A DNA stretch of 64,000 bases from positions 1 through 64,000 of the forward strand of contig JAAXUP010000002.1 of the NCBI GenBank assembly GCA_013335935.1, written 5' to 3'. Source of the stretch: Eubacteriaceae bacterium (GTDB lineage: Bacteria > Bacillota > Clostridia > Eubacteriales > Alkalibacteraceae). The notes beneath the pieces are model-generated. The model had not been told where the DNA came from, searched no databases, and saw only the letters and a program-made list of their open reading frames with translations. Of the stretch, positions 20,802-63,401 are shown piece by piece. The stretch's first letter is position 1, and each line of letters begins with the position of its first letter. Made by a program: the position numbers and the translations under genes.

Positions 20802-20837
20802 AAAGCCCAGAATGCTTGCATTCATGGGCTTTTTTTT
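20802..20837 (+). terminator. Terminator of rplM-rpsI
   Basis: AAGCCCA and TGGGCTT form the base of a hairpin with an inner GAATG/CATTC stem, followed by eight Ts. The next base begins the repeat at 20838. Confidence 0.88.
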
Positions 20838-20925
20838 GACTAGGAAAGTTCGACTAGCTCGCTGGTGTCCAAACTTTCCTAGCCTACTTGAATAACGCGT
20901 GATCGAAGTTATTCTTGTGGCGAGT
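20838..20925. repeat. Two-hairpin intergenic repeat, copy A
   Basis: It starts directly after the rpsI terminator T run. Hairpin 1 pairs CTAGGAAAGTT (20840-20850) with AACTTTCCTAG (20872-20882), with an inner GAC/GTC. Hairpin 2 pairs GAATAAC (20890-20896) with GTTATTC (20908-20914). No open reading frame lies inside. It is about 80% identical to copy B at 48666, and the same fold appears at 61781. Function unknown. Confidence 0.85.
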
Positions 20926-48622: not shown

Positions 48623-48626
48623 CACG

Positions 48627-48657
48627 AAACCGGAACTCCTTAGAAGTTCCGGTTTTT
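48627..48657 (+). terminator. Terminator of hup
   Basis: An 11-bp stem, AAACCGGAACT (48627-48637) with AGTTCCGGTTT (48645-48655), followed by TT. Copy B of the repeat begins 9 nt later. Confidence 0.88.
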
Positions 48658-48665
48658 ATCATTTA

Positions 48666-48752
48666 GACTAGGAAAGTTCGACTAGCTCGCTGGGGTCCAA
48701 ACTTTCCTAGTCTACTTGAATAACACGTCGAAGACGTTATTATTGTAGTGGG
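48666..48752. repeat. Two-hairpin intergenic repeat, copy B
   Basis: Hairpin 1 is a 13-bp stem: GACTAGGAAAGTT (48666-48678) with AACTTTCCTAGTC (48700-48712), plus inner GAC/GTC. Hairpin 2 pairs AATAAC (48719-48724) with GTTATT (48736-48741), plus GTC/GAC around GAA. It lies between the hup terminator and the S4-domain gene. It is nearly identical to copy A over the first 65 nt. Confidence 0.85.
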
Positions 48753-48778
48753 ACGTGATTCTTGAAAGGGGTGGAATA

Positions 48779-61753: not shown

Positions 61754-61779
61754 GCATCCCAGCCTGGGATGCTTTTTTT
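61754..61779 (+). terminator. Terminator after the S1-domain gene
   Basis: GCATCCC (61754-61760) pairs with GGGATGC (61766-61772), followed by seven Ts. Repeat copy C1 begins two nt later. Confidence 0.88.
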
Positions 61780-61780
61780 A

Positions 61781-61860
61781 GATCAGGAAAGCTCGTCTTA
61801 GCTTGCTGAAGACCAAGCTTTCCTGATCTACGAGAATAAGCGTCGCAGACGCTGTTCTTG
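61781..61860. repeat. Two-hairpin intergenic repeat, copy C1
   Basis: Hairpin 1: GATCAGGAAAGCT (61781-61793) pairs over 13 bp with AGCTTTCCTGATC (61816-61828), plus inner GTCTT/AAGAC. Hairpin 2: AGCGTC/GACGCT around GCA with outer GAAT/GTTC (61834-61857). The sequence differs from copies A and B at many stem positions, but pairing is kept. Confidence 0.85.
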
Positions 61861-61936
61861 TTGGAAAGCTCCTCTTAGCTTGCTGAAGACCAAGCTTTCC
61901 TGATCTACGAGAATAAGCGTCGCAGACGCTGTTCTC
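61861..61936. repeat. Two-hairpin intergenic repeat, copy C2 (tandem)
   Basis: An almost exact duplicate of C1 shifted by 77 nt. It lacks the first bases of the left arm (TTGTT in place of GATCA) while its right arm still ends CCTGATC. CCTCTT replaces CGTCTT, breaking one inner pair. It lies directly before the ppx ribosome-binding site region. Confidence 0.82.
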
Positions 61937-61969
61937 GCCGAGTAAGAAAGTTCGAAAGGAGATTTGAAT

Positions 61970-62953: not shown

Positions 62954-63042
62954 GCCGAAGTGGCGGAACTGGCAGACGCACAGGACTTAAAATCCTGCGA
63001 TCCTAACAGATCGTATCGGTTCGATTCCGATCTTCGGCACCA
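62954..63042 (+). tRNA. tRNA-Leu (UAA)
   Basis: Acceptor GCCGAAG/CTTCGGC, long variable arm typical of class II tRNA, anticodon loop CTTAAAA between CAGGA and TCCTG. Encoded CCA at 63040-63042. Confidence 0.96.
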
Positions 63043-63046
63043 ACGA

Positions 63047-63122
63047 CGCGGGGTGGAGCAGTTGGAAGCTCGTCGGGCTCATAACCCGGAGGTCGCAGGT
63101 TCGAATCCTGTCCCCGCAACCA
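63047..63122 (+). tRNA. tRNA-fMet (CAU), initiator
   Basis: The first acceptor position is a C opposite A (CGCGGGG/CCCCGCA), the initiator hallmark. The anticodon stem has three GC pairs (GGG/CCC) around CTCATAA. CCA is encoded. This distinguishes it from the elongator next to it. Confidence 0.95.
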
Positions 63123-63134
63123 TTTAAATTATAC

Positions 63135-63211
63135 GGCGGCGTAGCTCAGTTGGCTAGAGCACACGGTTCATACCCGTGGTGTCAGCGGTTCAAATCCGTT
63201 CGCCGCTACCA
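63135..63211 (+). tRNA. tRNA-Met (CAU), elongator
   Basis: Acceptor GGCGGCG/CGCCGCT, anticodon loop TTCATAC between CACGG and CCGTG, encoded CCA. It closely resembles elongator tRNA-Met of B. subtilis. The alternative, a tRNA-Ile2 precursor modified by TilS, is less likely because acceptor and anticodon stems do not resemble Ile2. Confidence 0.9.
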
Positions 63212-63230
63212 TTTTTTTTTATAGTTACCA

Positions 63231-63305
63231 GGCCCCTTGGTCAAGCGGTTAAGACACCGCCCTTTCACGGCGGTAACAGGGGTTCGAGTCCCCTAGGGGT
63301 CACCA
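63231..63305 (+). tRNA. tRNA-Glu (UUC)
   Basis: Acceptor GGCCCCT/AGGGGTC, anticodon loop CTTTCAC between CCGCC and GGCGG, encoded CCA at 63303-63305. Confidence 0.96.
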
Positions 63306-63325
63306 TTTAATTTAATAACCCACAT

Positions 63326-63401
63326 GGTCGCATAGCTCAGCTGGGAGAGCACCTGCCTTACAAGCAGGGGGTCATAGGTTCGAGCCCTATTGCGACCACC
63401 A
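63326..63401 (+). tRNA. tRNA-Val (UAC)
   Basis: Acceptor GGTCGCA/TGCGACC, anticodon loop CTTACAA between CCTGC and GCAGG, encoded CCA at 63399-63401. Last tRNA before the terminator. Confidence 0.96.

Follow-up and report, generated by a model that had tools for sequence, protein, structure and literature searches.

Group IIC introns insert beside a DNA stem-loop with a fixed polarity (PMC10190682), and REP elements rely on a folded strand (PMC8266576). Small, structured, intergenic repeats are also found in Firmicutes, among them the pneumococcal BOX, RUP, and SPRITE elements and bcr1 of Bacillus cereus, with which we compared our element by description; on that comparison SPRITE is itself terminator-like (PMC3049150), whereas the two-hairpin element sits after a terminator. 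Here, we describe this element from a 64-kb stretch of a Eubacteriaceae genome (hereafter, the window). Judging from its sequence and distribution, it is probably a small, non-autonomous mobile element that is recognized by its fold and inserted at terminators by an enzyme acting in trans.

The element is about 75-83 nt long and consists of two hairpins with no spacer between them, with a 3' end of CTTG or CTCG. Hairpin 1 has a 15-bp stem topped by a bulged apical stem and is directly adjoined by hairpin 2. Four copies (A, B, C1, and C2) occur at three loci of the window, all on the + strand. Copy A (20836-20917; covariance model and sequence) lies between rpsI and an Asp-Glu racemase gene (murI-like). 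Its insertion target is the intrinsic terminator hairpin and T-run of rpsI (20803..20837), as read from the sequence and from relatives that have a terminator at this position but no element. Hairpin 1 of this copy (20836..20886) begins with a T that is the end of the T-run, and hairpin 2 (20887..20917) ends in CTTG. Copy B (48664-48745; hairpins at 48664..48714 and 48715..48745) lies between hup and an S4-domain gene and is targeted to the hup terminator hairpin and T-rich tail (48626..48663), which has T-runs on both strands. Between the S1-domain and Ppx-GppA genes, copy C1 (61779-61860; hairpins at 61779..61830 and 61831..61860) is targeted to the terminator of the S1-domain gene (61754..61779), as read from the sequence, and is followed in tandem by copy C2 (61861-61937), whose hairpin 1 (61861..61907) has a 5' arm without its base and whose hairpin 2 spans 61908..61937. 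The limits of B and C1 come from BLASTN, the covariance model, and folding, and those of C2 from the latter two. RNA folding z-scores were -3.3 (A), -5.1 (B), -7.3 (C1), and -4.5 (C2).

An earlier note on this DNA had placed non-coding elements at 20838, 48666, and 61781/61861, and all four copies are indeed present, with slightly shifted limits. Hairpin 1, which the note gave as 11-13 bp, proved longer, and the CTAC-type linker that it saw between the hairpins is in fact no spacer: hairpin 1 closes with its A, and hairpin 2 opens with its C. The spacing of 0-9 nt from a T-run was borne out, with A and C1 directly after theirs and B about 9 nt past its main T-run. The note was likewise correct that the pairs C-G, T-A, and T-A of copy B (48668/48710, 48669/48709, and 48677/48701) become T-A, C-G, and C-G in copy C1 (61783/61826, 61784/61825, and 61792/61817), and that an inner A-T pair of copy B becomes T-A.

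Some further features of the window were observed. Directly 3' of copy B, TAGTGGGACGTGATTCTTG (48746-48764) resembles a collapsed tandem copy with its ends kept and its middle lost. Hairpin 2 of copy B contains a promoter-like TTGAAT-16-TATTAT (48716-48743), the counterpart of which in the main subfamily is TTGAAT-16-TATTCT and which is mostly absent in other genomes; the count of promoter-like matches in this region was not above that of shuffles. The window also carries an S10-Clostridia ribosomal protein leader (RF03136; 275-354) at the start of a ribosomal operon and five clustered tRNA genes (62954-63398).

The genome that contains the window (2.64 Mb, about 98% complete) was searched for copies by BLASTN and by a covariance model built from 56 copies. 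BLASTN returned about 40 strong copies with copy B as query, to which copy C1 as query added others. The model gave 130 raw matches at E<=1, and after removal of weak antisense and partial matches about 90 distinct copies remained. Since there are about 40 strong copies by BLAST and about 90 by the model in a single genome, chance is excluded, and the further copies anticipated by the earlier note are present. By the same model, we found about 25 copies in Alkalibaculum sporogenes, whose genus belongs to the family of the window's genome, about 28 in another genome of the order (G014), 3-10 in each of four Clostridia MAGs, two of which are labelled Candidatus Epulonipiscium, and none in the remaining 64 genomes of the order; the interspersed family is thus supported genome-wide and in six other genomes. 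Among 391 genomes sampled across the class, matches occurred only in the window's genome and A. sporogenes, and among 399 sampled across the phylum with a broader model, only in the window's genome. Plasmid records, phage records, and viral contigs held no match. An exact-pattern scan of the genome collection found none, and a degenerate pattern scan recovered the element-bearing genomes. Given this absence from most genomes and the several copies wherever the element is present, its distribution is patchy and multi-copy. The most similar pairs in the window's genome are 95-99% identical, compared with at most 86% identity among the G014 copies examined. From these identities, activity of the element seems recent in the former genome and old in the latter.

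Rfam yielded no family above the gathering threshold, in line with the earlier note, and permissive thresholds gave only chance matches of miRNA or snoRNA type over the element. In the open-licence literature on terminators, hairpin repeats, and mobile elements, no description of this two-hairpin family was found. The family of terminator-targeted, fold-maintained, and probably mobile repeats in Clostridia is real and, as far as tested, undescribed. A second small hairpin repeat (about CATAGGAAATTCCTCCGGATTTCCTATG) was seen interspersed in the two Epulonipiscium MAGs, sometimes directly after the two-hairpin element (L188 1571-1602; L189 1461-1506; L170 34-93; L196 1572-1642; L201 343-406).

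The element starts at the 3' edge of a T-tract and has a fixed polarity. More than 80% of copies in every genome group have T at both -2 and -3 upstream, and positions -5 to -7 are T-rich; the base 3' of the element is T in 73-94%. The flanks show no consistent target-site duplication, although a single T recurs on both sides. Counting as a terminator any hairpin of -8 kcal/mol or lower with a T-rich tail behind it, we found one upstream of 91 of 136 copies, as against 4 of 136 dinucleotide-shuffled sequences and 3 on the opposite (downstream) flank. Among intergenic sites with the matching T-rich motif in the same genome, 37 of 186 had a hairpin, compared with 33 of 48 motif-matched copies, so the hairpin matters beyond the T-tract and yet is not obligatory. 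The claim that each copy lies directly after a terminator consequently stands as a strong preference, genome-wide and in the six other genomes, but not as a rule, since roughly between a quarter and a third of copies have a T-rich tract upstream but no recognizable hairpin. Several of the copies lie at plain T-tracts antisense to a gene start, and at one locus (L024) two copies face outwards, one on each side of a single terminator. In many cases, the next gene begins no more than 60 nt away from the element.

The position of copies after terminators, together with the strength of the hairpins, would suit a backup terminator or insulator. However, the consensus has no T-run after either hairpin, and in three cases the copy comes after a riboswitch terminator and before the gene that this controls: two downstream of T-box terminators called by Rfam (L037 and L142) and one between a SAM riboswitch terminator and an apparent metK (L046). 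Because a second stop in such leaders would silence these genes and the hairpins are not followed by T-runs, we regard this function as extremely improbable. Of the two possibilities raised in the earlier note, a mobile element is favored, and a second transcript end is disfavored on account of the copies in these leaders. Two other loci (L137 and L140) show a T-box terminator signature by eye that Rfam does not call.

The gene order rpsI-terminator-murI is kept without the element in two other genomes (G001 and G005), where the rpsI terminator abuts the leader of the gene behind it; this is the empty site of copy A. Both genomes belong to other genera and are not strains of the same species. 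A tRNA-Arg locus compared between two element-bearing MAGs (G441 and G443) was rejected as a second empty site; the terminators differ, and a different hairpin repeat follows the tRNA.

Covariation was examined within the genome of the window and, independently, in 48 copies from other genomes, for which a separate MAFFT alignment was combined with the fold taken from the window's genome; in both cases the counts are of sequences and not of independent events. In the window's genome, 91% of alignment cells pair and 81 both-side changes were counted against a shuffle mean of 15, a signal that was lost when partners were slid by 1-3 columns. In the other genomes, hairpin 1 pairing was 90.5%, with 98 both-side changes against a shuffle mean of 30 and 9-20 with slid partners. 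The covariation that the earlier note had read from two copies is thus upheld in both sets. A joint alignment, itself fitted to the model, had both-side changes in 25 of 34 pairs. The basal pairs of hairpin 1 (2-9) account for most of the covariation, and the AAAGTT/AACTTT core of this hairpin is almost invariant. Among one-sided mispairs, G-U predominated over A-C, with ratios of 24:4 for the main hairpin 1 stem in the window's genome and 43:20 in other genomes. Were the fold of neither strand important, the two types should be about equally common; the strand that runs in the direction of the terminator is therefore probably the one that folds, as RNA or single-stranded DNA.

The G-U excess could alternatively stem from a host RNA function. 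The element might be a structured RNA domain, e.g., a hairpin for the 5' stabilization or processing of terminator read-through transcripts, that spread because it is useful. Covariation with a sense-strand G-U excess, the proximity to gene starts, and the copies placed after riboswitch terminators in the leaders of aaRS-type or metK genes are all consistent with such a role. It does not account for the patchy spread, the empty orthologous sites in relatives, or the arrays and tandem copies with an unmatched base, and insertions at T-tracts antisense to gene starts also speak against it. We therefore consider a host function unlikely.

Arrays or partial second copies occur at several loci. Considering only copies in which both arms are readable, first copies (n=109) had a mean of 8.0 of 9 basal pairs in hairpin 1, and later tandem copies (n=9) had 4.3 of 9, with the 3' arm kept and the 5' base lost. 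The later copies may be products of faulty duplication; alternatively, insertion may restore the 5' base of the first copy from the 3' arm. Following the second alternative, we tentatively raise, as an unlikely reading, that insertion is coupled to the folded element and that each such event renews the basal part of the 5' arm through fold-back copying of the 3' arm. Compensatory changes would then arise in one step, and fold-back copying at insertion would explain why the base is matched only in copies at T-tracts and unmatched in later tandem copies. If true, this would constitute a new RNA- or single-stranded DNA-based route of mobility that reads transcription terminators.

Taken together, the large number of copies, their patchy distribution and tandem arrays, and the empty orthologous sites favor a mobile element. 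In the mechanism that we envisage, an enzyme supplied in trans would recognize the folded sense strand, as RNA or single-stranded DNA, and join the 5' end of the element to a T-rich segment lying exposed or single-stranded at the terminator hairpin. Copies unable to fold would not be mobilized, which may be why the arms stay complementary despite sequence drift at the base of hairpin 1. Counting against mobility, no autonomous partner or recurrent neighbor gene was found; an all-against-all BLASTP of neighbors returned only element-spanning frames and ordinary paralogues or orthologues. The roughly 30% of copies that lack a clear terminator hairpin, and the fact that the empty sites come from other genera, count against this mechanism as well.

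Two known types of enzyme were considered as mobilizers. In the first case, the element would be REP/REPIN-like or derived from IS200/IS605 and moved by a Y1 (HUH) transposase with folded single-stranded DNA as its substrate, as might be expected from its bulged hairpins, the lack of inverted ends and target duplication, the preference for a short T-rich target, and a minus-strand GTAG at the hairpin 1 foot. This GTAG, however, occurs only in the main subfamily of the window's genome; the position reads GTGA, GTAA, GTAT, or GTGT in other subfamilies and genomes. The hairpins also lack unpaired guide or terminal segments, and none of the flanks of the Y1 genes examined contained an element. Moreover, six element-free genomes have Y1 genes, while G441 and G443 gave no Y1 match and G014 only fragments, a point weakened by the incompleteness of MAGs. 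We thus judge mobilization by a Y1 enzyme to be quite improbable. Y1 (RAYT-like) genes of about 250-320 aa, unlinked to the element, were observed at one locus of the window's genome (L177; contig C33) and at several loci of A. sporogenes, some with inverted GGGGAC-type flanks of their own; GGGGAC-like repeats have been described for subclass 2.1 TnpA-REP genes (PMC6006769).

In the second case, the element would spread as an RNA that is retrotransposed by a group IIC-like reverse transcriptase. The same type of target and polarity, the shortened 5' arms of later tandem copies, and the sense-strand fold all agree with this, but neither the window's genome nor G014 has an RVT_1 match and Rfam shows no group II intron, making such an origin very unlikely.

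A mobile repeat of this kind lands on gene end signals without breaking them and reaches riboswitch leaders, maintained by its fold and not by its sequence. It makes two questions testable: how a gene-less, 80-nt element locates terminators, and whether bacterial repeats can acquire compensatory changes through copying and not through selection. It also serves as a warning that covariation 3' of a terminator need not signify a conserved regulatory RNA.

Compared with known systems, the element resembles REP/REPIN sequences and their RAYT (TnpA-REP) partners in being small, intergenic, high-copy, palindromic, and non-autonomous, with recognition of a folded strand. It differs in having neither a conserved GTAG nor linkage to a RAYT, no element lying in the Y1 flanks examined, and in consisting of two adjacent hairpins without an unpaired foot, with a 15-bp stem of variable sequence and a target at the terminator edge. 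With IS200/IS605 and their non-autonomous derivatives it shares hairpins, a one-sided short target motif, and the lack of inverted ends and target duplication, and it differs in lacking a linked intact transposase. Where that family has a guide tetranucleotide on the 5' side of the foot of each subterminal hairpin, the hairpins here run to both ends of the element and hence leave no room for one. Descent as a MITE of a DDE transposase was rejected, there being no terminal inverted repeats and no consistent target-site duplication. Like group IIC introns, the element is inserted just 3' of a stem-loop or terminator with fixed polarity; those introns, however, comprise a ribozyme and an encoded reverse transcriptase, whereas this 80-nt element has no ribozyme domains (Rfam group II). 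Since each fails at least one defining feature, membership in the REP, IS200/IS605, and group IIC classes is rejected. Its target preference nonetheless resembles that of group IIC introns, and its dependence on a folded strand resembles that of REP elements.
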